Origin: Pseudomonadota bacterium | GTDB taxonomy: Bacteria; Pseudomonadota; Gammaproteobacteria; Burkholderiales; Burkholderiaceae_C | DNA: 64,000 nt | NCBI GenBank assembly: GCA_022566735.1 | Contig: JADFIG010000001.1 | Coordinates: 372,001-436,000 of the forward strand | Direction of reading: 5' to 3' | Part shown: positions 4,359-34,706 of the stretch, one piece after another | Layout: every line of letters starts with the position of its first letter | Position numbering within the stretch: position 1 is the first letter of the stretch | Program-made: the position numbers and the translations under genes | Notes under the pieces: generated by a model | The model's input: the letters and a program-made list of their open reading frames with translations, nothing else | Told to the model about the DNA's origin: nothing | Databases searched by the model: none

Positions 4359-4364
4359 GTGAGA

Positions 4365-17248: not shown

Positions 17249-17274
17249 GCCGGGGCGCCTCGCTGGCCGACGCC

Positions 17275-18144
17275 TCAGTCGCCGAAGCCCCGCAGCCGCA
17301 GGTAGCCATGCCACAGGCGGGACTTGAGCGCATCCTGCCAGGCCGATGAGCCCACCTTGCCCGGCGCCATGCCCACGCGCCGCAGCTGTTTGCGCAGGAC
17401 GTGGTTGCAGGACAGCGCATCGCGCCAGCGGATGCTTTCGCGGGTGTTGAAGATGATGGACATGGAGATGGAGACATCGCCGGGGCCATTGCGCACGTGG
17501 TGTCCCGCCACAAAGGGGATGTGGAGCGCTTCGCCCGGGCTGAACTCGAACGCCGTCGACAGCCCGTCGATCTGCGGCGACCAGGGCAGCTTGGTGTTCT
17601 GGCGGACCACATAGGCTTCGCGGTCGGCCTGGGAGACCACGCGGTCGTCCCAGGGCAGGGCGACGGTGACGGTCTTGCTGCCGCGGAACTGCATCAGGAA
17701 GGTCGAGTAGCGGTCGATGTGGAAAGGGGTGACGCTGTTGGGCGAGGCGATGAAGAGGTAGAGCTGCGCGCCCACGGGCATGTCGCCCACGCCGCGCGCC
17801 TTCATGAGGGCCGAGACCTCGCCGCACAGCCCCTTGTAGAGGTCCTGGAAAGACGGGTCGACCTCGGGGGAGCGCACCATGATGTAGGCGTCGGTGGTGC
17901 GGATGGACTCGATGGTTTCTTCCAGCGAGCGGTCCCTGGGCTTCTTGCGGAAGGTGGACTCGAAGTCCGCCTCCACGTCCAGCAGGCCTTTCGAATACAT
18001 CACCTGCTGCTGCGGCAGGGTGGGCAGGACGCGCGCGAGGTTGTCCAGGGACAGGGCGGGATGCCCCAGCAGCTTGTGGTGGAACTTGAACGGCTGGCGG
18101 TCCAGCAGTTCGCTCTGGAGGTCGTCGGCAAAGCAGGAGGTCAT
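17275..18144 (-). CDS. JmjC/cupin-like protein, candidate Fe(II)/2-oxoglutarate oxygenase
   Basis: A 289-residue soluble protein. The core has the facial-triad pattern of iron oxygenases: His142-x-Asp144 in VTPFHIDRYSTFL and a distal His at 215/216 in FVAGHHVRNG, with beta-strand-rich surroundings (KTVTVALPWDD, VSISMSIIF). This fits cupin-like/JmjC-type dioxygenases, which hydroxylate amino acids or peptides, including carrier-bound ones. It lies 12 bases after the stop of the upstream hydrolase gene and is presumably cotranscribed with the megasynthase. A tailoring hydroxylation is an inference; other cupins with the same triad are not oxygenases. Confidence 0.7.
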   Translation of the reverse strand: MTSCFADDLQSELLDRQPFKFHHKLLGHPALSLDNLARVLPTLPQQQVMYSKGLLDVEADFESTFRKKPRDRSLEETIESIRTTDAYIMVRSPEVDPSFQDLYKGLCGEVSALMKARGVGDMPVGAQLYLFIASPNSVTPFHIDRYSTFLMQFRGSKTVTVALPWDDRVVSQADREAYVVRQNTKLPWSPQIDGLSTAFEFSPGEALHIPFVAGHHVRNGPGDVSISMSIIFNTRESIRWRDALSCNHVLRKQLRRVGMAPGKVGSSAWQDALKSRLWHGYLRLRGFGD

Positions 18145-18156
18145 GGTGGCGATGCG

Positions 18157-18993
18157 TCAGGCGAGGTTGGAGGCGAAGCGGGTGACCGAGTCGATCAGGC
18201 GGCGTTGTGCGTGCAGGGTGGATGCCGTGTGGTCCACGTCGGACAGCAGGTCGCAGGCCACCGTGGCAACGGCGCCGTGATCCTTGAAGGCATCCCGCCA
18301 CTGGCTGGCGTGGTTGTAGCGCCAGAACATGCCCCCCGAGTACACGAGCTGCAGGCGCACCTGCCTGTCGATCAGCGTCTGGATGCGCTGTGCGAACTCG
18401 GCCTTGGACGGCGTGGGATAGGCGTTGTCGGTGAGCAGGGCGGGCTCGTCCCTGCGTGCGCTCTGGCGCAGGCGGGATGTCAGCAGCGGCAGCAGCCGCC
18501 TGGCCCAGCGGCTCACGGTGCCGGCGAGGTCCAGCTGCAGCTGGCGGCGGGCGCGCACCCACAGCGTGCGGGGGGTGGGGTAGGCATGGGTGTCCATGAG
18601 CCACAGGGCCTTGAGGCGCTCATCGCCGATGGCCGCGGCGATGCCGTGGTGGGCGCCCGAGCAGATGCCCGCCAGCGCAAATTGCCGGGCGGCCGTGACC
18701 CGCTGCAGGTGGTCCATCGCGGCGCTCAGGTCGCAGACGGCCTGCTGCTCGAACGACAGCGGGGTTTCGCTGGCCTGGCTGTCGCCCTGGCCCGACAGGT
18801 CGATGCGCAGGACCAGGAAGCCCTGCTGGGCCAGTTCGCGGGCCAGTTTGACGTTGATGCGGTGCGGCCCCATGCGCTGGATCACGCCGGCATTGAGCAG
18901 CAGGATGGCCGTGGCGCGCGGCTGCCCGGCGGGCTGGCTGAGCGTGCCGACCAGGCGATTGCCGGGGCCGAAGGTCAGGATGTGCTCGTTCAT
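18157..18993 (-). CDS. Alpha/beta hydrolase with Cys nucleophile elbow (exosortase-associated hydrolase 1-like)
   Basis: A 278-residue alpha/beta-hydrolase-fold protein. The early strand-loop is ILLLNAGVIQRMGPHR; then FLVLRIDLSGQGDS is typical of the family. The nucleophile elbow reads Gly109-Ile-Cys111-Ser-Gly113, so the catalytic position holds cysteine, as in dienelactone hydrolase. The expected general base is His255 in SDVDHTAS. The order and motifs recall the hydrolase 1 family found beside exosortase systems (TIGR03100), though no exosortase gene is present here. Its start overlaps the stop of the next hydrolase (ATGA). In the absence of a thioesterase domain in the megasynthase it is a candidate for in trans release or editing. 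Confidence 0.78.
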   Translation of the reverse strand: MNEHILTFGPGNRLVGTLSQPAGQPRATAILLLNAGVIQRMGPHRINVKLARELAQQGFLVLRIDLSGQGDSQASETPLSFEQQAVCDLSAAMDHLQRVTAARQFALAGICSGAHHGIAAAIGDERLKALWLMDTHAYPTPRTLWVRARRQLQLDLAGTVSRWARRLLPLLTSRLRQSARRDEPALLTDNAYPTPSKAEFAQRIQTLIDRQVRLQLVYSGGMFWRYNHASQWRDAFKDHGAVATVACDLLSDVDHTASTLHAQRRLIDSVTRFASNLA

Positions 18994-19793
18994 GCCGTCT
19001 GTCCGAGTGCGGCGGAGGTCAGCAGGCGCAGCAACTCCGGTGGCGCGAGGGCCGCCCCCCCGGCTTCTTCCTGGTGCCAGGCGGTGCGGGTCTGGGTGGG
19101 CTGGTGCTGCCAGGCCACGCCGCGGGCCCGCAACCGGCTGGCCAGCTGCAGGGTGAGCTCATCTTGCTGCGTGCCGATGTGGATGCAGGTGTCGGCGCAG
19201 GCCGCAAGCACTTGCTCGACCGTGAGGGCCTGCAGTTGCCGCAGCCATTCCGCGCTGACGCCGAAACCCAGGACTTCGTCTTTCAGCTCGGTGGAGGGGC
19301 GCTGGCGCTGGATGAACGGGTCGAAGGTGTGCTGGGCGTGGGCTTCACCCAGCTCACGCAGGTGGGATGCCCCGTCGAGCACGGGCTCCCACAGGACGAT
19401 GCGCTGGGGCGCGGCGCGGCCTTGGGCAGAGGCCAGCATGGCCAGGGTGGCGCCGAGGCGGCAGCCCAGCCAGGTGGTTTCCTGCGCGCGCGTGCGGCGG
19501 CCGAGTTCTTCGTGGGCCATCAGGAGGTCATCGCGCCAGCGCGTCAGTGAGCCCTCGGTGTCGGTGCCTGCCGATTCGCCGCTGCCGAGGTAGTCGAAAC
19601 GCATCACATGGACGCCCTGGCGGGCAAGCTGCTCGGCCAGGAGCCGGTACAGCAGGTGGGTGCGGACGGCCTCCTGCCCGAAAGGCGGGCACAGGAGGAC
19701 CTGCCGTGGGCTGCGGAGCGCGGGGGCCGGCGGGTGGTACACCCCGTAGAGGCGCTGCTCTGCGGGACCGAAAAAGAAAGGTGTCATCTGCAA
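18990..19793 (-). CDS. Alpha/beta hydrolase-like protein lacking the usual Ser nucleophile (exosortase-associated hydrolase 2-like)
   Basis: A 267-residue protein with the alpha/beta-hydrolase layout: VLLCPPFGQEAVRTHLLYR, then VHVMRFDYLGSGESAG. The elbow reads Gly110-Cys-Arg112-Leu-Gly114, placing arginine where the nucleophile should be; similar Gly-x-Arg-Leu-Gly elbows are, from memory, a feature of the exosortase-associated hydrolase 2 group (TIGR03101). Catalysis of a standard hydrolase reaction is doubtful, so it may be a partner of the following hydrolase. It starts 31 bases beyond the megasynthase stop and overlaps the next gene by four bases, so the three form one transcription unit. 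Confidence 0.72.
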   Translation of the reverse strand: MQMTPFFFGPAEQRLYGVYHPPAPALRSPRQVLLCPPFGQEAVRTHLLYRLLAEQLARQGVHVMRFDYLGSGESAGTDTEGSLTRWRDDLLMAHEELGRRTRAQETTWLGCRLGATLAMLASAQGRAAPQRIVLWEPVLDGASHLRELGEAHAQHTFDPFIQRQRPSTELKDEVLGFGVSAEWLRQLQALTVEQVLAACADTCIHIGTQQDELTLQLASRLRARGVAWQHQPTQTRTAWHQEEAGGAALAPPELLRLLTSAALGQTA

Positions 19794-19823: not shown

Positions 19824-22800
19824 TCATCGGCCCAGCCATCGACCGAGCCAGCCGCCACGCGAGGGCGGCTGTGGCGTGCGTGTCGGCACATCGGGGGAGG
19901 GGGCTTCGGCCGCTTGCGCGGCTGGCGCGGCGGCCAGTTGCCCCAGGGTTTCGAAAATCAGGCGGCGGACGTGGAGCGTCAGGCCGGTGCGCCGCTTGAT
20001 CTCGGTGACCGCGCGCATCGCCAGCAGCGAATGGCCGCCCAGGTTGAAGAAGTTGTCGTCCAGGCCGACGTCCTGGGTGTCGAGCAACTCCTGCCAGACC
20101 TCGGCCATGGCTTTCTCCTCGGGTGTGACCGGGCTGCGCCGGGCGGCTTGGCTGGCCGGTGGGCTGCTGGCAGCGGCTTCCGATGGGCGGGGCAGCGCGC
20201 CGCGATCCACCTTGCCGTTGGGCAGGCGGGGCAAGGCGTCCAGCAGCACGATGTGCTGAGGCAGCATGTGGTCGGGCAGGTCCCGGGCCAGCTGCGACTT
20301 CAGCTCTTGCAGTGCAGGCGTGGCCTGTCGATCGCGAGGCACGCCATAGGCCACCAGGCGGACATCGCCCGGCTGGTCCTCGCGCGTCACCACCACGGCC
20401 TGGCCGATCGCCGGGATGGCCAGCAGCGCGGCCTCGATTTCACCGAGCTCGATGCGGTGGCCGCGGACCTTGACCTGGTGGTCCAGGCGTCCCAGGTGCT
20501 CCAGTTCGCCGTCTGGGCACCAGCGCGCCAGGTCGCCGGTGCGGTAGAGGCGAGCCTCGGGGCGCGACTGGAAGGTGTCGCGCACGAAGCGTTCGGCCGT
20601 GAGCTCGGGGCGGTACAGGTAGCCCGAGCTCACGCCCTCGCCGCCGATGCAGAGCTCACCGGGCGTGCCCACCGGGCAGGGGTGGCCGTGCTCGTCCAGG
20701 ATGTGGACCTGGGTGTTGGCGATGGGGCGGCCGATCCGCATGCCGCCATCGGTCTGAGCGACGCGCCAGCAGGTCGACCAGACCGTGGTTTCGGTCGGGC
20801 CGTACATGTTCCAGACGGCGTCGCAGCGGGCCATCAGATCGCTGGCCAGCCGGGCCGAGAGGGTCTCGCCGCCGACCAGGGCCGTGAAGCCGGGACGGCC
20901 TTGCCAGCCGGCATCGATCAGGGCGTGCCAGGTGCTGGGCGTGGCCTGCATGACGTCGATGCCGTCTTCGATGAGGGCCTTGAGCAGGAAGGGGTCGCGG
21001 GTGTCTTCGCTGCGGCACAGCACGATTTCCGCGCCGACCAGCAGCGGCAGGAACAACTCCAGCACGGAGATGTCGAAGCTCAGCGTGGTGACGGCGAGCA
21101 GGCGCTGATGCGCTTGCAGACCCGGCTGGCGGGCCATGCTGCGCAGGAAGTTCACCACGGCACCGTGCGGAACCACCACCCCCTTGGGCTTGCCCGTGGA
21201 GCCCGAGGTGTAGATCACGTAGGCCGGGTCGTTCAGGGAGGCATCGGCCTGCGGGGCGGGGGGCAGCGGCGTGGCGGGCTGCTGCTGCAGGAGGGCGTCG
21301 TCGAGGTCGGTCAGCAGGGTCTTGTCACGTGGCCAGCGCAGCGCCTGCATGGCGTCGGCGCGGCTGATCACCCAGGCCAGGCGGGCGTCTTCGGCCATGT
21401 AGGCCAGGCGCTCGCCCGGGTAGGCCGGGTCCAGCGGCACGTAGGCGGCGCCGGTCAGCAGCACGCCCAGCAGGCTGGTCAGCAGGTCCGGACAGCGGGG
21501 CATGCACACACCGACCAGGTCACCGCGGCCCAGGCCCTGTGCGCGCAGTTGGTGGGCGATCTGGTGGGCCCGTGCCCACACCTCGGCGTGCGACAGCGGG
21601 CGTTCGCCTGACTGGCTCAGGGCGATGTCGCTGCCCTGGCTGTGCGCGGCCTGCCGCAGCAGGTCCACGATGCTGGCACGCGTCGGCCAGGGACTGGCGG
21701 TGTCGTTCCATTGCTTCAGCGCCTGCACTTCGCGGGGGCACTGTACCGAGACGCTGAGCAGCCGGGTCTCCGACAGGCTGGCCAGGCGTTGCAGCAGGTC
21801 GGAGAGGCGCTCGGCGAAGAGCTGGACGGTGGGCTGGCCGAGGATGGCGGTGTCGTAGCTGAAGGTGAATTCGATGTCGTCTGGCGTTTCGACGCACCAC
21901 AGCGCCAGGTCCTGGGCCGCGCCGACCATGGGGAGGTCGTGCCGCAGATGCTGCACATTGCCCCAGGTCGACGAGCGCTCGCGGGCGTCCTGGTAGGAGA
22001 ACAGCGCCTGGTACAGGGTCGAGCGGCTGGTGTCGCGGGGCGGGCGCAGGGTCCGCACCAGGTGGTCCAGGGGCACGTCGGGATGCGACAGGGCCTCGAT
22101 CACATGGCGCTGGACATGCGCGAACCACTCGCCGACGGTGAGGTCGTCGCGGGGGCGCAGTCGCACGGGCAAGGTGTTGACGAAGAAGCCGATCAGCGAT
22201 TCGAGCTCGGGGTGGTCGCGGCCCCGCACGGGGGTGCCGATCACCAGGTCGTCCTGCCCGGTGAGCTTGTGCAGCAACAGACCGAAGGCGCCCAGCAGGG
22301 TGGTGAACAGGGTGCGGCCCTCGCTTTGTGCCGCAGCCCTCAGCATCCGGGTGGTCTGGGGGTCGAGGCGGAACACCAGCGAGGCCCCCTCGCCGGACAT
22401 CACGGCGGGCCTGGCGTGGTCGAGGGGCAGGGCCAGCGGCGCCGGCAGCGGGCTCAGCTGCCCTTGCCAGAAGGCGGTCTGCCGCTGGAGTGCCTCGCCG
22501 CTCATCCACTGGTTGTGCCAGGCGGCGAAGTCGCCGTGGCTGACAGGCAGGGGAGGCAGCGCAGCCGGTCGGCCGGCCAGGGCAGCGGCATACAGCTCGC
22601 TGAGCTCGTCGTTGAGGATCTGGAAGGACCAGCCGTCCCAGACCAGGTGGTGCACGAGCAGGAACAGCACGTGGTCCTGGTCCGCCAGCTTGAACAGGCG
22701 GATGGCGAAGAGGGGGCCGTGCTCCAGGTCGAAGGGCGTGTGCGAGAGCGCGTTGAGGCGCGTGCGCAGGGTGGCCTCGCGCGCGTCTGCGGGCAGTGCG

Positions 22801-25800
22801 CTGAGGTCTTCCAGCGGCAGGAGGGCGGTCTCCAGCCGGGGCAGGATGCGCTGGCGGTCACCGGAGGGCGTGCGCTCGATCACCGTCCGCAGGGCCGACT
22901 GCCGCGCCACCAGTTGCTGCCAGGCCTGGCTCAGGGCCTCGGCGTTCAGGGGGCCGACCAGGCGGTGGGCCGAAGGGATGTGGTGGGCCACGCTGTGCGG
23001 CGTGAGGTTCTCCAGGTACCAGACGCGTTGCTGCATCTGCGACAGCGGCGCGGTGTCCTGCTCGGCGCGGTGCGGGACGACCAGGGCCGTGCTGGCCGGC
23101 CGGGCGGGCGCCGTCTCGGCCTGGCCGCCGAGTGCCTGGGCCAGCTGTCGCGGCGTGGGGTTGTCGAAGATGGCGTGCACGCTCACCGATTTCCCGGTGC
23201 GCGTGCGGATCTGGGTCACCGCCCGCATCACCAGCAGGGAGTGGCCGCCGCGGTCGAAGAAGTTGTCGTCCAGCCCGAACTGGGGCAGCCCCAGCAGGCC
23301 TCGCCAGACCTCGGCGATCGTGTCTTCCAGGCTGGCGGATGCCGCCGCCGGTGCCGCTGCAGTTGGTGCGGAGGCTGATGCGGGGGGGGATGCCGAGGCC
23401 GGTGCCGCCGCGGCGGGGGCGGGCAGCGAGCCTGGCGAGAAGTCGTAGCCAGACAGCGGCCGATCGGGGTCGGTCACGAAGTCGCGCAGGAGCTGCTCCA
23501 GGCTCCGGGCGAAATGGGCCACCGAGCTGGTTTCCAGCACATCCGCGTTGAAGGTGAAGACGAACTCGATGTGGTTGCGCGTTTCGACGCACCACAGCGC
23601 CAGGTCCTGCGCGGCGCCGAGCATGGGCGTGGGCATGCGCTGGTGGTCGACGTTGCCCCAGCGGGTGGTGCGCTCGCGCACGTCCTGGTAGGAGAAGCTG
23701 ACCTGGTGGATGGGCGGGCGGCTGCGGTCGCGCGGCACCTGCATCTCATGGACCAGGTGGTCGAAAGGCACGTCCGGGTAGGAGAAGGCATCGACCACCA
23801 TGCGGTGCACCGCGCGGAGCCAGTCGTCCAGGGCCATGTCCGGGCGCGGCCGCATGCGCAGCGGCAGCATGTTGACGAAGAAGCCCATCAGGTGCTCCAG
23901 CGCGGGCTGCTCGCGGCCACGCACGGGCGTGCCGATGACGAAGTCGTCCTGGTGACTGACCCTGTGCAAGGCCAGGGCGTAGGCTGCCAGCAAGGTGATG
24001 TAGAGCGTGCGGCCGTGCTGCTGGGCCTGGGCACGCAGCGCGTCGGTGACGTCCTTGGCCAGGTTGAACTGGAAGGAGCCGCCTCGGCCGGACATCACGG
24101 CAGGGCGCGGGTGGTCGATCGGGAATGCCAGCGGCGGGGGCAGGGGCGTGAGCTGCTCGCGCCAGTAGCCGAGCTGGCGCTGCAACTCGGGACCGGTCAT
24201 CCACTCGTTGTGCCAGGCCGCGAAGTCGCCGTAGCTCACGGTCAGTGGCGGCAGCCTCGGCGGGCGGTTTTCCAGGCAGGCGCTGTAGAGCTCGGGCAGG
24301 TCGACGTACAGCAGGTCGAAGGACCACGCATCCCAGATCAGGTGGTGTGCCTGGAACAGCAGGCCATGTTCTTCCGCGGAGAGGCGGAACAGCCTGGCGG
24401 TGAAGAGCGGGCCTTGTTCGAGCTCATAGGGCGTTTCCACCAGCTCGGCAATGACCTTGTTCATCGCGGCCTTGCGGTCGTCGGGCGGCAGGTGGCTGAA
24501 GTCGTCGAAGGGGATCAGGCTGAAGGGCAGCTCGGGCAGGACGCGTTGCACGTCGCCCTGCGGGCCACGCTCGATCACCGTGCGCAGCACGCTCTGGCGC
24601 TGGATCAGCAATTGCCAGGCCCGGTTGAAGGCGTCGACATCCAGCGGGCCGAGCAGGCGGTGTCCGGTCGGAATGCTGTGGACCACGGTGCCCGGCGTGA
24701 GGTTCTCCAGGAACCAGACACGCTCCTGCATCTGCGACAGCGGCGCGGTGGACTGATCGGCCCGGATGGGGATCGTGTCGGCCGCGGAGGGGCTGGGCGC
24801 TGCGCTGCGGGCCTGCTGCGCGTTCATCTGCCACAAGGCCTGACCCAGCTGGCGCGGGGTGGGGTTGTCGAAGATCAGGCGCAGGCCGGGCCGCTGGCCC
24901 AGTGCCTTGGCCAGCAGCGCCGACAGCTTGGCGGCCATCAGCGAGTGGCCGCCTTGCTCGAAGAAATGCTCGGTCTCGCCCAGGCGCTCGCGCCCGAGCA
25001 ACTGGCCCATTTCGCGGGCCACCGTGTCGATGGCCTGTGCAGCGGGGCCGGACGCCGCGGTGGCAGCGGCCGCAGGGGGGGCCGCCTGCGCTGCCACGGC
25101 GACGGCTGGCGCCGCCACGCTGGCGGCGGGCAGCGGCAGGGCCTTGCGATCGACCTTGTTGTTGGGCAGCAGGGGCAGCGAGGGCAGTGCCAGCACGGTG
25201 CGGGGCACCATGTAGTCGGGCAAGGTCTGGCGCAAGGCCGTGCGCAGCGCCGCCGTGTCCAGGGCTGCACCCGCCGAAGGCACCACGTAGCCGATCAGGG
25301 CCATGTCTCCTGGCGTGATGTCGCAGGCCACGACCACGGCACGGGAGACGCCCGCCTGCTTTTCGAGCTGGGCCTCGATCTCGCCGAGTTCGATGCGGTA
25401 GCCGCGGATCTTGACCTGGAAGTCCATGCGGCCCAGGTGCTCGATCTGGCCGTCTTCCCGCCAGCGGCCCAGGTCGCCCGTCCGGTAGACGCGCTGGCCT
25501 GCGCGGGGGCCCCAGGGCAGCGTCACGAAGCGCTCGGCCGTGAGGTCCTCGCGCCCGTGGTAGCCCAGGGCGACGCCGTCGCCGCCGATGCAGATCTCGC
25601 CTTCTGCCCCGACGGGCAGGGCCTGCAGGGCCTCGTCCAGGATCCAGACCTGGGTGTTGTCGATCGGTCGGCCGATGCAGATCCTGGCGGCAGGGTCGGT
25701 CACGTGCGACAGCGTGGACCAGACGGTGGTTTCCGTCGGGCCGTACATGTTCCAGACATCGCAACCCTTGGCCAGCAGTGCGCCGGCCAGCGCGGCGGGC

Positions 25801-28800
25801 AGAGGCTCGCCTCCCACCAGGGCGCGGAAGCCTTTCGGTGCCTGCCAGCCAGCGTCCAGCAGGAGGTGCCAGGTGGTGGGGGTGGCCTGCATGACGGTGG
25901 CGCCTTGCTGGGCGGCCAGGGCCATCAGGGCTTCGCCATCCATGGCCTGGTCACGCGTGGCCAGCACCACGGTGCCGCCGGCGCACAGCGGCAGCAGCAA
26001 TTCCAGGACGGCGATGTCGAAGCTCAGCGTGGTGACGGCCAGCAGGCGATCGGAGGCTTGCAGTCCGGGCTCACGCAGCATCGATGCCAGGAAGTTGCAC
26101 ACCGCGCGGTGGGGCACGGCCACGCCCTTCGGCCGGCCGGTCGAGCCCGAGGTGTAGATCACGTAGGCCGGGGCTTGTGCGTCGCCGTGGAGCGGCAGCG
26201 GGGCATCGCTGAAGGCTTCGAGCCGGGCTGCATCGCGGTCCAGCTGCAACTGCATGGCCTGGGGCAGGCCGCTGGCGTCGGCGCAGGAGGAGTGGGTGAC
26301 GATGCGGGTCAGGCCGGCGTCTTCGGCCATCATCTTCAGGCGCTCGGTCGGGAAGCCCGGGTCCATCGGGACGTAGGCCGCGCCGGTCTTGAGCACGCCC
26401 AGCAGCGCCGGCAGGAGATGGCGGCCGCGGGGCAGGCTGATGCCGACCCGCTGGCCGGGGCCGACGCCTGAGTCCTGCAGCAGGCGCGCGATCCGGTTGG
26501 ACTGCGACTCCAGTTGCCGGTAGCTGAGGCTGCCTTCGTGGGTCACGACGGCCGTGGCGGCGGGCGACCGGTCCGCCTGTCGCGACAACCAGGCTTCCAC
26601 CCGGGCGGGGGTCTCCAGCGTCCGGTCGGTCTGGTTCCAGCTCAGCAGGCGAGCGTCCAGCGCGGCCTCTGCCGGCGGTGCCAGGTGCGCCATCAGGCGG
26701 TCCACCAGTTGCTGGGCCCGCTGGGTGCTGAGGTGCTCGGTGCTGTGGTGCAGGTCGAGCGTGAGTGCGTCGGCCTGTTCGTAGAAATTGAAGAACACCT
26801 CGCCGAGCAGCCCGCGCTTGCGGCCCTCGTGCATGGCCGCCTCCAGGGGCGCCCAGCCCGACAGGTCGACCTTGGGGTTGAGGTTGAAGTACACCGACGT
26901 GAGGGCCGGCCGGCTGCCCTCGGCCTGCAAACCGAGCGCACGTGCGGCTGTGCCCTGGGTCATCAGGGGGTGCTCCATCGCGTCCATGAGCGCGGACTTG
27001 ATGCGGCGCACCTGGTCCTCGGCAGCTTCGCCCTCGGTCAGCTGAAGGCGCAGCGGGAGATCGAGCACGCCATCGGCCAGCAAGGGGCCATGGCGTTCCA
27101 GGCTCTGGGCGGCATAGGGGATGCTGACGACGAAGTCACGCTGGCCGCTGTCGTGTGCGATCAGTTCGGCCACGCCATGCAGCAGCCATTGGAACAAGGT
27201 GGCTTCATGGGCCCTGGCCAGCTCTTTGAGGCGGGCCAGACGCGCGCCGTCGAGGCGACCCCGCACCGTGTCTGCCGCGAAGGTGCGTGGACCGCTCGGC
27301 ACCTTGTCGCCCAGCGCGACCGGCGCTGGCAGGTTCTGCAGGGTCTGCTTCCAGTACGCGAGGCTGTCTCGTCCTTCGGCGCTGTCGAAGCGCTTGTGCT
27401 CGGCCTCGGCGAACCGCAGCGGCGAGGCCGCGGCCGGCCATCGCGGGGCCTGGCCCTGGCTGCGGGCCTGGTAGGCCTGGGCCAGTTCGGCATTGAACAC
27501 GCTGGAGGCCCAGCCATCGAAGACCAGGTGGCTGGCCACGACGTGCACCACCACGCGGCCATCGGCCAGCGTGAGGATGCTGGCGCGCGCCAGCGGGGCC
27601 TGGTCCAGCGGGAAGTCGGTGGCGCTGGCCTGCCATGCGTGCTGCTCCAGGGCCTGGTCGCCATCGGGCCAGGTCCGCAGGTCGACCTCCGAGATGGGCA
27701 CCTGGACGTCCGGGTGGAGGATCTGTCGGGGCTGGTCCAGCTCGAAGCTCAGCTTGAACGCCTCGTGGCGTTGCAGCACGTCCTGCAGTGCCTGCTTGAG
27801 CGCAGCGACATCGACCCGGCCTTTCAGGGTCACGCAGAAGGACTCGTTGAGGGCCAGGCGCGCAGCCGGATCGTAGATCGCCGCCAGCCACCGTTCGGTC
27901 TGGCCCGGTGCCAGGGCCGAGGCAGCGTTTGCCCCGATCGCCGTGGGTGCGGGGGGCGCCAGGCCCTCCCGCGGGGCGATCAGCCCTTGCGCCATCAGCT
28001 CATCGAGCGCGCCGATGAAGGTGTCGGCGACGAGGGTGCAATCCGCATCCGTCATGGCCTCGGTCACGAAGTGGCCGAACTGCTCGTACAGGTGCAGGCC
28101 GCGCAAGCGCGCCAGGTAGTAGAACAGGCTGACGTGGCGGGTGTTGTCGTCCCACTGCAGGCGCCACAGCGAGGCGCAGTGCACGGCCTTGACCGGGGCG
28201 TGGCGGGCAGTGAACGCCGCGTTGATCCGGTCGACCATGCGCTGGGTGCGCGCATTGACGCTGTCGTACAGGGCGCGGCCGCCTTGCTTGAGGTGCCGCA
28301 GCGTGGCGCGGGCCGCGGCCAGGGCCAGCGGGTGGCGCACGAAGGTGCCTGCGAAGTAGGTGACACCCGCTTCCGGGTAAGAGTCGTCGCCATACTGCCA
28401 GTGACCGCCGTCCAGGGCGTCCAGCCACCGGCTGCCACCGGCGATGGCCGCGAAGGGCAGCCCGCCACCGATGATCTTGCCGTAGGTGGCGATGTCGGCG
28501 CGCACGCCGTAGAACTCCTGTGCGCCGCCTGGGGCCACGCGGAAGCCGGTGACCACCTCGTCGAAGATCAGCGCTGCGCCGCCTTGCGTGGCGATCTCGC
28601 GCAGCTGCTGGACGAAGGCCCTGGGCTGCAGCGTCGGGTACTTGTTCTGGATCGGCTCGATCATGATGGCCGCCAGCTCGTGGGCGCACTGGCGCAGCAC
28701 CTCCAGCGACTCGGGGCTGTCGTAGTCGAGCACGAGGATGTTCTCGACCGCGTTGGCCAGGATGCCCGGTGCAGCCGACAGCGAGCGCAGCTGCCTGGTG

Positions 28801-31800
28801 CCGCGCACGATGACCTCGTCGAAGATGCCGTGGTAGCTGTTGTTGAAGATGGCGATCTTCTTGCGGCCCGTGACCGTGCGGGCGATGCGCATGGCGCCCA
28901 TCACCGCTTCGGAGCCCGTGTTGCAGAAGGCCACGCGCTCCATGCCGGTGATGTCGGCGATGAGCTGGGCCACCTCGGCGGCCATCGGGTGCTGCGGGCC
29001 GACCTCGATGCCGCGCTGCAACTGCTCGGCGATGGCCTGCGTGACGTCGGCGGGCTTGTAGCCCAGGAAGTTGGCGCCGAAGCACGACAGCAGGTCGATG
29101 TACGCGTTGCCGTCGATGTCCCACACGCGTGCGCCTTCGGACCGGTCGACCACGATGGGGTAGACCAGGTCCTTCCACAGTGGGTTGAAGCCGGTGACCA
29201 CGCGCGGGTCGGCCATCACCTTGCGGTGCTGCTGGCTGAAGGCCTTGGACCGGCCAGTGCGCGCGTTGTAGCGGCGGATGAAATCATCGATCCACTGCTG
29301 CTGTGCGGGCGTGACGTCGTTGTGCGCGTTCAGCACGATGCGCGCGGACGCGCCAAAGGGCTTTTCCACCAGGGCGTTCTTGCCCGGTTGCTCGGCGCTG
29401 GCCGCGGCCGCGGCGGTGTCGGGCGCGGGGTGGATCACCGCCGAAGGGCAGGTCGCAGCCGGCAGGGCCTGGGCGGGCGTGTGTGTCTGCGGTTGAGCCT
29501 GCGCCTGCGCCTGCGTCGCTGGCAGCGACAGGTTCTGCCCGGAGAGCAAGGCCAGCTGCTGCGACATCAGCTGCATCTGCTGCCGGATCATCTGCTGCAA
29601 GATGCCGCCAGCGTCCATGCCTTGCGCGGCCTGAAGCGGCTGCAGGGCGAGCGTCGACGTGGCTGCCGATGCCGTCGGTGGTGTGGTCGGTGCTGCGGGC
29701 GCGAACTTGTCGGCGGGCAACTGGCTGTCGAAGAAGCTCGCCAGCTTGGCCAGGGTGTCGAGGTCTTCGAGCAGGCGGCGGAAGCGCAGCTTGATGCCGA
29801 AAGACTGCTCGAAGGCCAGCGTGGCCTGGGTGAGCGAGAGGGAGTCCAGGCCCTGGTCCACGAAAGTGGCGTCGCGCTGGACTGATTCGGCGGGCAGGCC
29901 GGCCACATCGCTGAGGATGCGGGCGATTTCTTGCTCGATGCGGGGCAGTCTGTTCATGGCAGGCGGCTGAGTTTGAGCGATGGTTGCGTGCGACAGGGGG
30001 TGGGTCGCGGACGAGGTCAACGGCATGAGGGTTGCCGGAACACTGCGGGTGAACCAGTGGACCTCGCGCAGGAAGGGGTAGGTCGGCAGCGCCAGACGCG
30101 GGCTGCGTGCCGGCACGGGCCAGGCGATGTCGGCGCCCAGTGACCACAGCTGGCCCAGGGCCTGCAGCGCGTGGCGGCTCGGGTCGGTGCTGCCTTGCGC
30201 GGCTTGCTGGGCCGACATCAGCAGCGGCACCACGGCCGGGGCCGGCGCACCCGTGGCGCGGTGCTGTCGCACCAGGGCGGTCAGCGCCTGGCCCGGCCCG
30301 ACTTCGATGAAGAGTGGCTGTCCGCCGCTGGACTCGCCCTGGGGGGCCTGCTCGGCCAGCACGGCACGGCTGAAGGCCACCGGCGCGCGCACCTGGCGTG
30401 CCCAGTAGGCCGGGGCGGTGGCTTCTTCGGCGCGCAGCGGTGCGCCGCTGATGCAGGAGTAGAGCCTGGGCTGGGACGCCTGCGGGCCCTGAGGCATCTG
30501 CAGCCGGGCCTGGGCCAGCGCGGCTTCGACACGCGGCAGGGCGCCGTCCATCGCAGCGCTGTGGAAGGCGTGGGAGACCTTCAGGCGGGTCACCCCGATG
30601 TCGCGGGCTTCCAGCAGGCCGGCCAGTTGCTCGATCTCGGCGTGCGGGCCCGCCACCACCGTGAGCTGGGGGGCGTTGAGCGCGGCGATGTCCACCCCCT
30701 GTGGCAGCAGGGGCTGGAGCGTGCCGACATCGGTGCGCACGGCCAGCATGGCACCGCCGGGCTGCTCGAACATGGCCTGGCCGCGGGCGATGACGGCGCG
30801 CATGGCGTCGCCCACCGACATCACGCCGGCATGGCAGGCCGCGGCGTACTCACCGATGCTGTGGCCGATCATGGCCTGCGGCCGCAGGCCCAGGCTGTCC
30901 AGCCAGGCCGCCAGCGCACAGGAGACGGCGAACAGCGCCGGTTGCGCGTGGCGGGTCTCGGCCAGGGTCGCGGCAGCCTGTGCGTCGTCGGCGCGGGCCT
31001 GCGTCAGCAACTGCCGCAGCGTCTGGGCCAATTCGGCCGGGGCCGCGTCCAGGCAGGCCTCGAAGGCCTCGCGGAAGGCGGGCAAGGCCTCGCACAGGCC
31101 GCGGGCCATGCCCGGGTGCTGCGAGCCCTGGCCGGGAAAGAGGAAGACCAGGCGCGGCGCGCGCAGGACGGTGGCGTTGCCCTGAGCCGGACGCAGGGAT
31201 TGCAGGGCCGCGATGGCCTCGGCATGGTTGGCGGCCACGACCGTGGCGCGCAGGGGCATGGCCAGGCGGCCGCGCATCAGCGTGGCGGCGACTGCGCTCA
31301 GCGGTTGTTCGGGGTGGCGCTGCAGGTGCAGGGCCAGGTCTTGCGCGCGCTGCTGCAGGGCCTGCGGGTGCCGCGCCGACAGGGGCAGGAGTTGCAGCAC
31401 CGCGGCGTCCTGGGACGCGGCAGGGACGGCGGCGGCCGGCGCTTCTTCCAGGATGACGTGGGCGTTGGTGCCCCCCACGCCGAAGGAGCTCACGGCCGCG
31501 CGGCGCGGTGCCTGGCCGCGCGGCCAGGGCTGTGCCTGTGCGCTGACGTGGAATGGCGTGCTGGCGAAATCGATCTGTGGGTTGGGCTGGCTGAAGTGCA
31601 GGGTGCCCGGCACACATTCGCGGTGCAGCGACAGGGTGGCCTTGATCAGGCCCAGCACGCCGGCGGCCGCCACCAGGTGCCCCACATGCCCCTTGATGGA
31701 GCCCAGCAGGCAGTAGCCGGTGTCGCGGGTGTCGCCCGACCAGGCGCGGCTGAGGGCCGCCACCTCGATGGGGTCGCCCAGGGCCGTGCCCGTGCCGTGG

Positions 31801-34706
31801 GCCTCGACGTAGCCGATGCTGCGTGCGTTGACCTGCGCGTGCGCCAGGGCCATGCGGATGGCCTGGGCCTGGCCGGCCACGCTGGGTGCGGTGAAGCTGG
31901 CCTTGTCGCCGCCGTCGTTGTTCAGGCCCACGCCGGAGATCACGCCGTAGATGGTGTCGCCGTCGGCCTGGGCCTGCGACAGGCGCTTGAGCACCACCAC
32001 GCCGCCGCCACTGCCGAACACCGTGCCCGAGGCCTGCGCATCGAAGGGCCGGCAGCGGCCATCGGCCGACTCCATGCCGCCTTCGACGTGCAGGTAGCCG
32101 CCGGCCTGGGGCACCTGCACGGTCACACCGCCGGCCAGCGCCACCTCGCACTGGCCCTGGGCGAGGGCGTGCCAGGCGTGGGCGATGGCCACCAGGGAGG
32201 TCGAGCACGCCGAGTGGATGGCCACGGCCGGGCCGTGGAAGTCCAGGCGGTGCGCGGCCCGCGTGGCCACGTAGTCCTTCTCGTTGGCCAGCATGGCCGT
32301 GAACTCGCCGGCCTGCGCGATCAGGGCGGGGTCTTCGGCGCGCATGGCCGGCAGGTAGGCGTTGTTGGCCGTGCCGGCATAGACGCCGATGCGCTCAGGC
32401 GTGCGGCTGGGGTCGATGCCGGCGTGCTCCAGCGCGGTCCAGCACAGCTCCAGGAACAGGCGCTGCTGCGGGTCCATCAAGCGGGCTTCCCGCGCGGAGA
32501 TGCCGAAGAAGCCGGCGTCGAAGCAGTCGGCGTTGTCCAGCACCCCGCGGGCCGCGACGAAGTTCGGCTGTCGCCACAGGGCTTCGGGAACGCTGGGGTC
32601 GAGCTCCTCGGGACGGAAGCGGCGGATGGCTTCCTTGCCGCGCAGCAGGTTGTCCCAGAAGGTGTCGATGTCGCTGGCATCGTCGACGCGCAGCGCCATG
32701 CCCACGATGGCCATGCCTTCGTGCGGGTGGCCGCCCGCGGGGACGGGCCGGGCCTGAGGGCCTGCGCTTGTGGCGGTGTGGGCCGCGTCAGCGTCGTCCG
32801 CACTCGCCAGGGCCGTCAGGCCCGCCACGCTCGGGCGGTCGTAGACATCGGCCACGCTCAACCGGATGCCGGCTTCCTTCATGCGGGCCACGAAGCGCAT
32901 GACCAGCAGGGAGCGCGCGCCCAGGTCGAACAAGCGGGCCTCATCGTCCAGCTGGGGCAGGCCCAGCAGCTCCTGCCAGGTGGCGCGGATGCGGGTGCGC
33001 ACGTCCGTGTGCCCGCTGGCAGCCGCCTGGGGCGACACCGCGGGCAGGCCGCGCCGGTCGATCTTGCCGCTGGGGGTGGTGGGCAGGCGCGCCAGCACCG
33101 CGAAGCGCACCGGGATCATGTACTCCGGCAGGCGCTCGCGCAGCCACTGACGCCACTCGGCCACGGGGGGCTGGACGGCACCGATGCCCGGTCGCAGCAC
33201 CACGTGGGCGGTCAGCACGCGGCTGCCATCGGGGTCCCGCGGCGCGGTCACGACGGCGTCCTGCAGGCTCGGGTGGGCCATCAGGGCCAGTTCGATGTCG
33301 CCGGGCTCGATGCGGAAACCGTCCACCTTGAGTTGCTGGTCGGCGCGGCCCAGGTAGCTGAGGACGCCGTCGGCGCCTTGCCGCACGAGGTCGCCCGTGA
33401 CGTACCAGCGACCAGCCTGGCCCGGGGCTTGGGCATTGGCATTGGCGTCGGCGTCGGTGAGGAAGCGCTCGGCGCTGAGGTCGGCGCGGCCCAGGTAGCC
33501 CTCGGCCAGGCAGTCGCCGCCGAGCAGCAACTCGCCGGACTGACCGCTCCCGGTGCGGGTGTTGCCCGCGTCGTTCGTGTCGTTCGCGTGTGGGGGCGGC
33601 GGCGCAACCTCCGACGCAACGTCCGACGCAACCGCCTCCCCGCCGTCCTCATCGCGCAGCGGGCGCAGCCGCACGGCCACATGGGGCAGGGGGCGCCCGA
33701 TGGGCGGGATCTGCGGCCAGGCTTGCGGCGGGCCCGACAGCTCGTGGGCGGTGACCACGTGGCTCTCGGTGGGGCCGTAGTGGTTGTGCAGCACGGCGCC
33801 GGTCTGGCGGGCGAACAGGGCGCGGATGTCCGGTGTGATCTGCAGCTGCTCTCCCGCGCTGACGACGTCGCCCAGCACCAGGGCCGGTCCGTGGCCAGCG
33901 TCCGCGTCCGCCTGGGCCAGCATCTGCAGGGCCACGTAAGGCAGGTAGAGCCGGGACACCTGCTGCTCGGCCAGGGCCTGGTGCAGGCGGGCCGGGTCGC
34001 GGCGCACCTCGTCTGCCACCAGCACCAGCGTGCCGCCGGTGGCCAGCGTCGAGACGATTTCCTGGAAATGCACGTCGAACGACAGTGGCGCGAACTGCAG
34101 GGTGCGCGCGGCCTGGCCCAGGCGGGGGTGCGCCACGTGCCAGCCGATCAGGTGGTCCAGCGGGGTGCAGCCCATGGCCACGCCCTTGGGGCGTCCCGTC
34201 GAGCCCGAGGTGAACAGCACGTAGGCCAGGTCGCCGTTGTCGGCGTGGGGGCGCGGGCCTGCGGGGGCAGGGCAGGCCAGCGTCGGCACATCGCCCACCA
34301 GGCCTTGCAAGGCCTGCAGCGCATCGGCCTCGCCCACGACGGCGCGGACCTGGGCGTCCCGCAGCATGGCCTGCAGCCGCTCGGCGGGGTAGCTCAGGTC
34401 CAGGGGCACATAGGCCAGGCCGTGCTCCAGCGCGGCGAGGATGGACACCACCGTGTCCGCGCTGCGGGTGGCGGCGATGCCCAGGCGCTGTCCTGGCAGC
34501 AAACCGGCGGCGGCCCAGGCCTGGCGGCGCTGTGCCACCCGCTGGGCCAGCACGCGGTAGGTCCAGCGCACGCCCAGCCCTTCGAGGGCGATGGCCTCGG
34601 GCAGGCGTTCGGCGGTGCGCGTCAGGGTCTGGCGGACGGGCCAGGCAGCCGCAGGGACGGGTGAAGAGGATGCGGGCATGCCTGGCAGAGGGTGAACTTG
34701 GACCAT
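19824..34706 (-). CDS. Hybrid NRPS-PKS megasynthase (A-PCP-KS-AT-ACP-AMT-C-A-PCP-C-PCP-C-A-PCP)
   Basis: 4960 residues, about 530 kDa. Domains with approximate residues: A1 15-555; PCP1 (Ser599); KS 660-1090 (Cys834, AHGTGT near 968, KGHVGH near 1004); AT 1185-1490 (GHSIGEY near 1282, HAFH near 1377, malonyl-type); ACP (Ser1622); Gln-rich linker 1700-1745; class III PLP aminotransferase 1800-2210 (Lys2077); C1 2260-2690 (SHLVFDG); A2 2690-3190; PCP2 (Ser3255); C2 3315-3755 (HHLIWDA); PCP3 (Ser3823); C3 3880-4320 (HHLVWDG); A3 4340-4835; PCP4 (Ser4893). There is no thioesterase or reductase. The A-KS-AT-ACP-aminotransferase front half resembles MycA/McyE-type beta-amino-acid assembly. Hand-read pockets suggest proline for A1 and glycine for A2 and A3. 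The C2-PCP3 module lacks an A domain. An ATG at 34679 is an alternative start. The product is unknown. Confidence 0.93.
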   Translation of the reverse strand: MVQVHPLPGMPASSSPVPAAAWPVRQTLTRTAERLPEAIALEGLGVRWTYRVLAQRVAQRRQAWAAAGLLPGQRLGIAATRSADTVVSILAALEHGLAYVPLDLSYPAERLQAMLRDAQVRAVVGEADALQALQGLVGDVPTLACPAPAGPRPHADNGDLAYVLFTSGSTGRPKGVAMGCTPLDHLIGWHVAHPRLGQAARTLQFAPLSFDVHFQEIVSTLATGGTLVLVADEVRRDPARLHQALAEQQVSRLYLPYVALQMLAQADADAGHGPALVLGDVVSAGEQLQITPDIRALFARQTGAVLHNHYGPTESHVVTAHELSGPPQAWPQIPPIGRPLPHVAVRLRPLRDEDGGEAVASDVASEVAPPPPHANDTNDAGNTRTGSGQSGELLLGGDCLAEGYLGRADLSAERFLTDADANANAQAPGQAGRWYVTGDLVRQGADGVLSYLGRADQQLKVDGFRIEPGDIELALMAHPSLQDAVVTAPRDPDGSRVLTAHVVLRPGIGAVQPPVAEWRQWLRERLPEYMIPVRFAVLARLPTTPSGKIDRRGLPAVSPQAAASGHTDVRTRIRATWQELLGLPQLDDEARLFDLGARSLLVMRFVARMKEAGIRLSVADVYDRPSVAGLTALASADDADAAHTATSAGPQARPVPAGGHPHEGMAIVGMALRVDDASDIDTFWDNLLRGKEAIRRFRPEELDPSVPEALWRQPNFVAARGVLDNADCFDAGFFGISAREARLMDPQQRLFLELCWTALEHAGIDPSRTPERIGVYAGTANNAYLPAMRAEDPALIAQAGEFTAMLANEKDYVATRAAHRLDFHGPAVAIHSACSTSLVAIAHAWHALAQGQCEVALAGGVTVQVPQAGGYLHVEGGMESADGRCRPFDAQASGTVFGSGGGVVVLKRLSQAQADGDTIYGVISGVGLNNDGGDKASFTAPSVAGQAQAIRMALAHAQVNARSIGYVEAHGTGTALGDPIEVAALSRAWSGDTRDTGYCLLGSIKGHVGHLVAAAGVLGLIKATLSLHRECVPGTLHFSQPNPQIDFASTPFHVSAQAQPWPRGQAPRRAAVSSFGVGGTNAHVILEEAPAAAVPAASQDAAVLQLLPLSARHPQALQQRAQDLALHLQRHPEQPLSAVAATLMRGRLAMPLRATVVAANHAEAIAALQSLRPAQGNATVLRAPRLVFLFPGQGSQHPGMARGLCEALPAFREAFEACLDAAPAELAQTLRQLLTQARADDAQAAATLAETRHAQPALFAVSCALAAWLDSLGLRPQAMIGHSIGEYAAACHAGVMSVGDAMRAVIARGQAMFEQPGGAMLAVRTDVGTLQPLLPQGVDIAALNAPQLTVVAGPHAEIEQLAGLLEARDIGVTRLKVSHAFHSAAMDGALPRVEAALAQARLQMPQGPQASQPRLYSCISGAPLRAEEATAPAYWARQVRAPVAFSRAVLAEQAPQGESSGGQPLFIEVGPGQALTALVRQHRATGAPAPAVVPLLMSAQQAAQGSTDPSRHALQALGQLWSLGADIAWPVPARSPRLALPTYPFLREVHWFTRSVPATLMPLTSSATHPLSHATIAQTQPPAMNRLPRIEQEIARILSDVAGLPAESVQRDATFVDQGLDSLSLTQATLAFEQSFGIKLRFRRLLEDLDTLAKLASFFDSQLPADKFAPAAPTTPPTASAATSTLALQPLQAAQGMDAGGILQQMIRQQMQLMSQQLALLSGQNLSLPATQAQAQAQPQTHTPAQALPAATCPSAVIHPAPDTAAAAASAEQPGKNALVEKPFGASARIVLNAHNDVTPAQQQWIDDFIRRYNARTGRSKAFSQQHRKVMADPRVVTGFNPLWKDLVYPIVVDRSEGARVWDIDGNAYIDLLSCFGANFLGYKPADVTQAIAEQLQRGIEVGPQHPMAAEVAQLIADITGMERVAFCNTGSEAVMGAMRIARTVTGRKKIAIFNNSYHGIFDEVIVRGTRQLRSLSAAPGILANAVENILVLDYDSPESLEVLRQCAHELAAIMIEPIQNKYPTLQPRAFVQQLREIATQGGAALIFDEVVTGFRVAPGGAQEFYGVRADIATYGKIIGGGLPFAAIAGGSRWLDALDGGHWQYGDDSYPEAGVTYFAGTFVRHPLALAAARATLRHLKQGGRALYDSVNARTQRMVDRINAAFTARHAPVKAVHCASLWRLQWDDNTRHVSLFYYLARLRGLHLYEQFGHFVTEAMTDADCTLVADTFIGALDELMAQGLIAPREGLAPPAPTAIGANAASALAPGQTERWLAAIYDPAARLALNESFCVTLKGRVDVAALKQALQDVLQRHEAFKLSFELDQPRQILHPDVQVPISEVDLRTWPDGDQALEQHAWQASATDFPLDQAPLARASILTLADGRVVVHVVASHLVFDGWASSVFNAELAQAYQARSQGQAPRWPAAASPLRFAEAEHKRFDSAEGRDSLAYWKQTLQNLPAPVALGDKVPSGPRTFAADTVRGRLDGARLARLKELARAHEATLFQWLLHGVAELIAHDSGQRDFVVSIPYAAQSLERHGPLLADGVLDLPLRLQLTEGEAAEDQVRRIKSALMDAMEHPLMTQGTAARALGLQAEGSRPALTSVYFNLNPKVDLSGWAPLEAAMHEGRKRGLLGEVFFNFYEQADALTLDLHHSTEHLSTQRAQQLVDRLMAHLAPPAEAALDARLLSWNQTDRTLETPARVEAWLSRQADRSPAATAVVTHEGSLSYRQLESQSNRIARLLQDSGVGPGQRVGISLPRGRHLLPALLGVLKTGAAYVPMDPGFPTERLKMMAEDAGLTRIVTHSSCADASGLPQAMQLQLDRDAARLEAFSDAPLPLHGDAQAPAYVIYTSGSTGRPKGVAVPHRAVCNFLASMLREPGLQASDRLLAVTTLSFDIAVLELLLPLCAGGTVVLATRDQAMDGEALMALAAQQGATVMQATPTTWHLLLDAGWQAPKGFRALVGGEPLPAALAGALLAKGCDVWNMYGPTETTVWSTLSHVTDPAARICIGRPIDNTQVWILDEALQALPVGAEGEICIGGDGVALGYHGREDLTAERFVTLPWGPRAGQRVYRTGDLGRWREDGQIEHLGRMDFQVKIRGYRIELGEIEAQLEKQAGVSRAVVVACDITPGDMALIGYVVPSAGAALDTAALRTALRQTLPDYMVPRTVLALPSLPLLPNNKVDRKALPLPAASVAAPAVAVAAQAAPPAAAATAASGPAAQAIDTVAREMGQLLGRERLGETEHFFEQGGHSLMAAKLSALLAKALGQRPGLRLIFDNPTPRQLGQALWQMNAQQARSAAPSPSAADTIPIRADQSTAPLSQMQERVWFLENLTPGTVVHSIPTGHRLLGPLDVDAFNRAWQLLIQRQSVLRTVIERGPQGDVQRVLPELPFSLIPFDDFSHLPPDDRKAAMNKVIAELVETPYELEQGPLFTARLFRLSAEEHGLLFQAHHLIWDAWSFDLLYVDLPELYSACLENRPPRLPPLTVSYGDFAAWHNEWMTGPELQRQLGYWREQLTPLPPPLAFPIDHPRPAVMSGRGGSFQFNLAKDVTDALRAQAQQHGRTLYITLLAAYALALHRVSHQDDFVIGTPVRGREQPALEHLMGFFVNMLPLRMRPRPDMALDDWLRAVHRMVVDAFSYPDVPFDHLVHEMQVPRDRSRPPIHQVSFSYQDVRERTTRWGNVDHQRMPTPMLGAAQDLALWCVETRNHIEFVFTFNADVLETSSVAHFARSLEQLLRDFVTDPDRPLSGYDFSPGSLPAPAAAAPASASPPASASAPTAAAPAAASASLEDTIAEVWRGLLGLPQFGLDDNFFDRGGHSLLVMRAVTQIRTRTGKSVSVHAIFDNPTPRQLAQALGGQAETAPARPASTALVVPHRAEQDTAPLSQMQQRVWYLENLTPHSVAHHIPSAHRLVGPLNAEALSQAWQQLVARQSALRTVIERTPSGDRQRILPRLETALLPLEDLSALPADAREATLRTRLNALSHTPFDLEHGPLFAIRLFKLADQDHVLFLLVHHLVWDGWSFQILNDELSELYAAALAGRPAALPPLPVSHGDFAAWHNQWMSGEALQRQTAFWQGQLSPLPAPLALPLDHARPAVMSGEGASLVFRLDPQTTRMLRAAAQSEGRTLFTTLLGAFGLLLHKLTGQDDLVIGTPVRGRDHPELESLIGFFVNTLPVRLRPRDDLTVGEWFAHVQRHVIEALSHPDVPLDHLVRTLRPPRDTSRSTLYQALFSYQDARERSSTWGNVQHLRHDLPMVGAAQDLALWCVETPDDIEFTFSYDTAILGQPTVQLFAERLSDLLQRLASLSETRLLSVSVQCPREVQALKQWNDTASPWPTRASIVDLLRQAAHSQGSDIALSQSGERPLSHAEVWARAHQIAHQLRAQGLGRGDLVGVCMPRCPDLLTSLLGVLLTGAAYVPLDPAYPGERLAYMAEDARLAWVISRADAMQALRWPRDKTLLTDLDDALLQQQPATPLPPAPQADASLNDPAYVIYTSGSTGKPKGVVVPHGAVVNFLRSMARQPGLQAHQRLLAVTTLSFDISVLELFLPLLVGAEIVLCRSEDTRDPFLLKALIEDGIDVMQATPSTWHALIDAGWQGRPGFTALVGGETLSARLASDLMARCDAVWNMYGPTETTVWSTCWRVAQTDGGMRIGRPIANTQVHILDEHGHPCPVGTPGELCIGGEGVSSGYLYRPELTAERFVRDTFQSRPEARLYRTGDLARWCPDGELEHLGRLDHQVKVRGHRIELGEIEAALLAIPAIGQAVVVTREDQPGDVRLVAYGVPRDRQATPALQELKSQLARDLPDHMLPQHIVLLDALPRLPNGKVDRGALPRPSEAAASSPPASQAARRSPVTPEEKAMAEVWQELLDTQDVGLDDNFFNLGGHSLLAMRAVTEIKRRTGLTLHVRRLIFETLGQLAAAPAAQAAEAPSPDVPTRTPQPPSRGGWLGRWLGR
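33432..33455. repeat. Hexanucleotide tandem repeat inside the A1 domain
   Basis: Four successive units GGCATT, GGCATT, GGCGTC, GGCGTC encode an Asp-Ala/Asn-Ala stretch on the minus strand, in a surface loop of the loading adenylation domain. It looks like slipped-strand expansion. Confidence 0.7.
33609..33632. repeat. 12-bp tandem repeat inside the A1 domain
   Basis: Two units, CTCCGACGCAAC and GTCCGACGCAAC, differ at one base. On the minus strand they encode repeated Val-Ala-Ser-Asp/Glu residues within an insertion of about 35 residues between core motifs A6 and A7 of the proline-type adenylation domain. Confidence 0.65.

Follow-up and report, generated by a model that had tools for sequence, protein, structure and literature searches.

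A predicted MycA-type hybrid synthetase with an amino-acid start and an adjacent cysteine hydrolase pair in Aquabacterium

The locus described here raises the question of what a hybrid of nonribosomal peptide synthetase (NRPS) and polyketide synthase (PKS) makes when it combines an amino-acid start with a beta-aminating module, and how its product is released when its gene contains no release domain. The window, that is the whole stretch of 64,000 nucleotides that was analysed, comes from a freshwater bacterium whose genus is Aquabacterium as judged by its named relatives. It contains a single open frame of 4960 aa (34706..19824, minus strand) with an ATG start and no internal stop. Based on Pfam, a domain scan, motifs and specificity codes the frame encodes a hybrid NRPS–PKS of the order A(Pro-like)-PCP-KS-AT-ACP-AMT-C-A(Gly-like)-PCP-C-PCP-C-A(Gly-like)-PCP. 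Pfam, whose output gives the best stretch per family only, finds three Condensation, three AMP-binding and five PP-binding domains, the N- and C-terminal ketoacyl-synt domains, Acyl_transf_1 and Aminotran_3; together with the domain scan the synthetase has 14 domains. A preliminary description of this DNA had read a single 4960-codon NRPS–PKS gene with the same domain order. The open frame, the order and the core motifs could be confirmed, whereas the count of thirteen domains given there has to be corrected to 14.

The domain boundaries come from a scan seeded with pieces of the same protein and are not independent evidence: A1 (21–560 aa), PCP1 (566–636), KS (663–1095), AT (1181–1490), ACP (1576–1650), AMT, the aminotransferase (1801–2215), C1 (2256–2690), A2 (2691–3195), PCP2 (3216–3295), C2 (3311–3745), PCP3 (3794–3862), C3 (3879–4330), A3 (4336–4845), and PCP4 (4859–4930). 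The KS carries the motifs ACSTS, EAHGTGT, and KGHVGH, the AT carries GHSIGE and HAFH, and the carrier motif GxxSL is found in all five carriers. With these motifs and the Pfam families ketoacyl-synt, Acyl_transf_1, and Aminotran_3 the earlier KS, AT, and aminotransferase calls hold. The condensation domains read SHLVFDG in C1, HHLIWDA in C2 and HHLVWDG in C3. As SHxxxDG in place of HHxxxDG is found in all 23 rows having C1, the missing first histidine is a trait of the clade and not damage.

The aminotransferase is of class III and is placed after KS-AT-ACP and before the condensation domain, as in the beta-aminating PKS–NRPS enzymes of the MycA type. Its best match in the PDB is MycA of mycosubtilin synthesis with 353 bits, the second-best molecule, glutamate-1-semialdehyde aminomutase, reaching 183 bits, so that the MycA-type assignment made previously is borne out. 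The TYGK motif aligns with TYGK of MycA, and its lysine is presumably the one that binds PLP. Judged from its sequence, the window synthetase is a real and conserved member of the MycA type, predicted to be beta-aminating, with an amino-acid start.

The adenylation domains indicate which substrates might be used. A1 has the code DVQYVAHVVK, and DVQ[YF][VI]AHVVK is read in all 22 proteins having A1, the window included; we take this to be a proline code by its likeness to known Pro codes, the ten positions having been located by motif. A1 is thus an amino-acid-type domain with a Pro-like code and not a fatty-acyl ligase as at the start of iturin and mycosubtilin synthesis. A2 and A3 share the code DILQLGMVWK, presumably for glycine, and A2 is the same in most relatives; three of them (L037, L041, L043) read DVWHLSLVDK in A2, which we assume to be Ser-like, and two (L034, L060) read DMPQMGLVYK. 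In L061, a locus of genome G030, the tail appears to carry a Ser-like and then a Gly-like A domain. The proline starter, the malonate extension, and the Gly-like units predicted in the preliminary description agree with these codes and with the HAFH motif of the AT, if the codes are taken to mean Pro and Gly and the motif malonyl. Since an amino-acid A-PCP start is followed by beta-amination, a vicinal diamine head is predicted, unlike in MycA, and we know of no named product with such a head. The product we propose is a 3-amino-3-(pyrrolidin-2-yl)propanoyl-oligoglycine that would leave the synthetase by off-loading in trans and might end up on a glycan. It is possible that the locus makes a new compound.

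Close homologues of the synthetase are present in 19 of the 42 genomes of the genus and in addition in Hydrogenophaga and Caldimonas; named relatives having it are Aquabacterium commune DSM 11901, A. parvum B6, Hydrogenophaga borbori, H. intermedia S1, and Caldimonas mangrovi. The architecture is not due to chance, because 18 further genomes of the genus match the aminotransferase region at 77–91% identity. The protein counts (n = 22, all with A1) comprise the window, 17 full-length homologue loci and L060, L062, L063, and L064. The sequence of L060 breaks off close to its last PCP, where the contig ends; L061, which has no head, enters a count only when it is mentioned by name. Of 27 homologue loci, the eight distant ones (L048–L055) were excluded from the ortholog counts, as were L042 and L046, which are incomplete or dissimilar. 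Among the loci outside the window's clade, L120 (G699, contig C130) holds two aminotransferase synthetase genes on one contig of 29 kb, with 64% and 50% identity to the window aminotransferase. Genes for copper oxidase or copper ATPase lie in the fetched stretches of L134 (Spirosoma linguale pSLIN02) and of L113 and L136 (Variovorax RA8 and WDL1), which might point to a metal-binding product or be chance.

A comparison of the relatives shows, as a new feature, that the head of the synthetase is constant and its tail variable. The tail of the window, C-A-PCP-C-PCP-C-A-PCP with one C-PCP lacking an A domain, is found in 5 of the 22 proteins, and Aquabacterium commune DSM 11901 (L030) has this long form; three have C-A-PCP-C-A-PCP, and 14 end in C-A-PCP-C-(remnant or cut A)-PCP, with the last A domain reduced or truncated. 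About 290 residues of the last A domain remain in L062 and L063, and in the other 12 proteins of this form the matches reach at most 45 bits or are missing; Pfam on three of the remnants gave no match for two and a fragment under the cut-off for one. In the window, C2 and C3 are 56% identical, as are PCP3 and PCP4, which fits a module that was duplicated and then lost one A domain. Carriers without a working A domain of their own are, from these tail forms, common in the family and presumably receive their substrate from an A domain next to them.

The means by which the chain leaves this enzyme may lie outside the gene. Past the last PCP Pfam finds no further families, and neither an in-line thioesterase nor a reductase is present at the C-terminus. 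The earlier statement that there is no release domain is correct for the gene, but the gene is followed by a pair of alpha/beta-hydrolases in all relatives with downstream sequence. In the window hyd2 (18990..19787, minus strand; start set by eye at a Met) has an alpha/beta-hydrolase fold resembling TIGR03101 with the motif LGCRLGA, that is, Arg at the place of the nucleophile. The next gene, hyd1 (18157..18993, minus strand; profile and alignment), whose start overlaps the stop of hyd2, is a TIGR03100-like alpha/beta-hydrolase with Cys111 at the elbow (GICSG) and D254-H255. The pair lies downstream of the synthetase in all 21 relatives having downstream sequence (17/17 full-length loci and 4/4 of L061–L064). 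In row sets which contain some second copies and omit some first copies, the hyd1 elbow G-x-C-S-G/A has Cys in 19/19 rows and in 18/18 rows of a second alignment, D254-H255 is kept in 18/18 rows, and hyd2 has Arg or Gly at the nucleophile place in 18/18 rows.

Both proteins appear to be related to the exosortase-A hydrolases 1 and 2 (TIGR03100 and TIGR03101), with which they share the arrangement of two adjacent alpha/beta-hydrolases and the Cys elbow in hydrolase 1. Nevertheless, the window pair is far under both cut-offs: hyd1 scores 76.5 bits (cut-off 168.45) and hyd2 88.9 bits (cut-off 202.75). Members of TIGR03100 over the cut-off were found in 17 of 100 relatives searched and have the Cys elbow in 6/6 loci examined. 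In the genus they occur in 7 of the 42 genomes (G008, G018, G020, G024, G029, G035, G041), two of which, G008 and G041, also carry a window-type synthetase. The genome of the window gave no TIGR03100 match over the cut-off in the profile search, and Pfam gave no exosortase family for those genes of the window on which it was run. At L092 a fused hyd2-hyd1 over the cut-off adjoins an acyl carrier protein; the exosortase-A families TIGR03098 (ligase) and TIGR03099 are also present there over their cut-offs.

The pair is also found apart from the window's clade. Of 399 genomes of the order, 7 carry hyd1-like genes (E up to 1e-20), at 11 places that all have hyd2 adjoining; 11 genomes have an aminotransferase-bearing (AMT) synthetase (E up to 1e-60), and six have both. 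Fisher's test gives p ∼6e-10 per genome and 2e-5 with the genus g28 counted once, values which allow for descent only partly; as four of the six genomes belong to one genus, the co-occurrence is not independent. In G277, the seventh genome with hyd1, the pair adjoins KS-AT-PCP and C-A-PCP genes, and no AMT match was obtained. Of 17 AMT synthetase loci outside the window's clade, five (L057, L058, L082, L112, L122) have the pair beside them within the fetched stretches and the other 12 do not (L056, L127–L129, L059, L113, L114, L120, L121, L134–L136), although the genomes of L056 and L127–L129 do have hyd pairs at other places; L105–L110 and L115–L118, with flanks too short, were left out of this count. 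Thus, the pair is no general need of this synthetase type, because outside the window's clade it is often missing. It recurs with other assembly lines: at L036, L044, and L047 (Hydrogenophaga) a second, oppositely oriented hyd2-hyd1 pair, at about 24–32 kb of the locus, adjoins another NRPS module, which in L036 has a TubC_N docking domain, and in L044 the second pair also adjoins a KR-bearing PKS gene.

The cluster reaches past the synthetase gene, with neighbours at 14528–19787. Next to hyd1 lies a gene for a Cupin_8/JmjC-like protein by Pfam, a putative Fe(II)/2-oxoglutarate oxygenase (17275..18144, minus strand), in which H142, D144, and H215 are invariant in 13 rows and which matches FIH in the PDB weakly (E 0.06). 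The convergent gene that follows (about 16103..17248, plus strand; start by eye) encodes an SGNH/GDSL hydrolase-like protein that carries a hydrophobic stretch at its N-terminus, and homologues of this protein adjoin related synthetases. A methyltransferase of the TIGR04325 (LIC12133) family (15241..16038, minus strand; start by eye from ortholog length) scores 175.6 bits where the cut-off is 80, and a 4′-phosphopantetheinyl transferase (PPTase) of the ACPS superfamily (14528..15241, minus strand; start by eye) was found by profile under the HetI cut-off. Between 14528 and 34706 there are no transporter genes. The flanks of the cluster are housekeeping-like, with nusA, infB, truB, and bipA on one side and dus and adenosine deaminase on the other. 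Four loci, L034, L035, L040, and L043, share a gene family near hyd1 whose L034 member is a membrane acyltransferase (Acyl_transf_3) according to Pfam; the other three members are assigned by homology only.

A possible acceptor of the chain is suggested by some relatives. In Variovorax paradoxus VAI-C the order is TIGR04325 methyltransferase (opposite strand), synthetase, NRPS, PPTase, hyd2, hyd1, with the hyd pair assigned by NCBIfam matches under cut-off. Directly after hyd1 come a polysaccharide export protein, a tyrosine autokinase, a sugar transferase, GDP-L-fucose synthase, glycosyltransferases, and a polysaccharide biosynthesis protein. Genome G057 shows the same gene order by homology, and in both the downstream genes appear to be a wza–wzc exopolysaccharide operon. 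The surroundings of an AMT synthetase in Rhizobium CCGE532 include a flippase, a sugar transferase, GT4, a pyruvyl transferase, and a TIGR04325 methyltransferase. All eight hyd2-hyd1 pairs in the four genomes of genus g28 adjoin polysaccharide genes (confirmed by Pfam for two of eight), namely sugar transferase and UDP-sugar dehydrogenase or Wzy, WecG, and epimerase, with two pairs per genome; each of these four genomes carries an AMT synthetase elsewhere. Poly_export (PF02563) was tried as a marker of exopolysaccharide dependence and rejected, as it is present in 42/42 genomes of the genus and does not discriminate. A link to a sheath peptide is a speculative lead; Aquabacterium is placed in the Sphaerotilaceae.

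We consider it probable that the following scheme, in which we infer the substrates and every chemical step, describes the system as a whole. A1-PCP1 would load proline as the starter, KS-AT-ACP would add one malonyl extension, and the MycA-type aminotransferase would convert the beta-ketone to an amine. The resulting 3-amino-3-(pyrrolidin-2-yl)propanoyl unit would be condensed with two or three glycines, PCP3, without an A domain of its own, being served by A2 or A3, whose codes are identical. In place of an in-line thioesterase, the neighbouring hyd2-hyd1 would release the product: the cysteine of hyd1 may take the chain as an acyl-enzyme and hand it on to water or another acceptor, and hyd2 would be its partner lacking a nucleophile. 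The cupin protein, the TIGR04325 methyltransferase, the SGNH protein, and the PPTase are presumed to be accessory.

If the acceptor were water, hyd1 would act as a stand-alone thioesterase yielding a free acid, an ordinary diffusible small cationic peptide serving as antimicrobial, metallophore, or signal. NRPS products are usually released as diffusible compounds, the window locus is devoid of polysaccharide genes, and genes for efflux of the AcrB and HlyD types lie upstream of the L037 orthologue; on the other hand, the window cluster has no transporter and relatives of the pair sit in polysaccharide and exosortase-A loci, so that we give this possibility somewhat less than an even chance. 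Less likely is a bolder form of the scheme, in which hyd1 places the peptide on a sugar nucleotide or on a repeat unit linked to lipid; an exopolysaccharide or a glycan of the envelope would thereby become decorated with peptide, and the SGNH protein and the methyltransferase would finish it. The gene runs of VAI-C and G057, the Rhizobium CCGE532 locus and the eight g28 pairs argue for it. However, in the window's own clade no joined polysaccharide operon is found: matches to search seeds, which were drawn partly from the same loci, lie near 4 of 18 loci and none in the window (a sugar transferase ∼7 kb upstream in L036, L039, and L044; epimerase and UDP-sugar dehydrogenase upstream in L038). 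Further upstream in the Hydrogenophaga locus L138 no operon was seen in seven genes scanned by Pfam, which gave a nucleotidyltransferase, an FAD oxidoreductase, a trypsin-like protease, dihydroorotate dehydrogenase, phosphomannomutase, and two without match. In addition, the exopolysaccharide-linked synthetases form a separate sister clade in the tree (L112 with L057, 99/99), and the starter codes of their wider group (DALWIGGTFK, DALWMGGTFK, DMPQWGLVWK) are unlike Pro. Within the fetched stretches the hyd pair is missing from the Rhizobium loci, and both the operon and the pair are missing from Variovorax RA8, Variovorax WDL1, and Spirosoma. The glycan reading is a lead drawn from relatives.

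Two further explanations touch the synthetase itself. The proline nitrogen might attack the aminated thioester to give 1-aminopyrrolizidin-3-one, a small bicyclic product to which the glycine modules would be minor; the geometry, by which a five-membered lactam is possible, and the decayed last A domain in 14/22 proteins speak for this, but the motifs of C1, A2, and PCP2 are kept in the window and the altered C1 motif is uniform in its 23 rows, and we regard this as very improbable. Slightly less credit still is due to the view that the cluster is decaying and without product in part of the clade. The remnant or cut third A domains and the C-PCP without A in 5/22 would fit decay, and yet the aminotransferase is conserved across the genus at the identities given above, the frames are free of stops and the window motifs are kept.

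If the hyd2-hyd1 pair is, as the preferred assembly-line scheme has it, a device for off-loading or transfer in trans, this would explain how synthetases without thioesterase finish their products. It would also give a first testable role to TIGR03100 and TIGR03101, which NCBIfam holds only as hypothetical equivalogs. Should the acceptor be a glycan, nonribosomal peptide synthesis would be tied to the chemistry of the bacterial matrix. The widest form of this idea, in which vicinal-diamine, Gly-rich peptides are moved by the Cys hydrolase pair from the carrier onto exopolysaccharide building blocks and the exosortase-A hydrolases 1 and 2 carry out an analogous aminoacyl transfer in ligase–ACP loci, is speculative and seems unlikely to hold in full.

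Among known systems, microcystin synthetase McyE also has an aminotransferase between PKS and NRPS module, but the Adda start and the in-line release are both missing in the window synthetase. The puwainaphycin enzyme PuwE has its aminotransferase in the same place and differs by a fatty-acyl start and in-line release, neither of which the window synthetase has. Among the literature matches listed, which represent the literature in part, we recognised by title or start of abstract no published product for the window system, and no description of the hydrolase pair (the exosortase type included) with an NRPS or of an NRPS with exopolysaccharide. An antiSMASH analysis of Hydrogenophaga sp. SL48 lists a T1PKS/NRPS region and has mycosubtilin among the similar known clusters (PMC12993520); this region is at most a candidate member of the family. 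The closest precedent is MycA of the mycosubtilin/iturin type from Bacillus, whose class III aminotransferase between the PKS and NRPS parts aminates a beta-ketothioester (PMC4219810, PMC3870968). The window synthetase has the same aminotransferase type at the same place, yet, where MycA activates a fatty acid, it starts with an amino-acid A-PCP. The preliminary view that such a combination had not been described does not stand for the front end, as A-CP-KS-AT-CP-aminotransferase (PLP1) proteins from genomes were tabulated by Milano et al. (2013, Table 2; PMC3870968), for example, C6XWU5 from Pedobacter heparinus and G2E5C9 from Thiorhodococcus drewsii. Both share the front-end order of the window, followed by C-CP in G2E5C9; they are predictions, and the passages of that paper that describe them contain no Pro starter, hydrolase pair, or glycan link (PMC3870968). 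What is new on this known MycA-type plan is the adjacent Cys-hydrolase pair, together with the glycan link in relatives.
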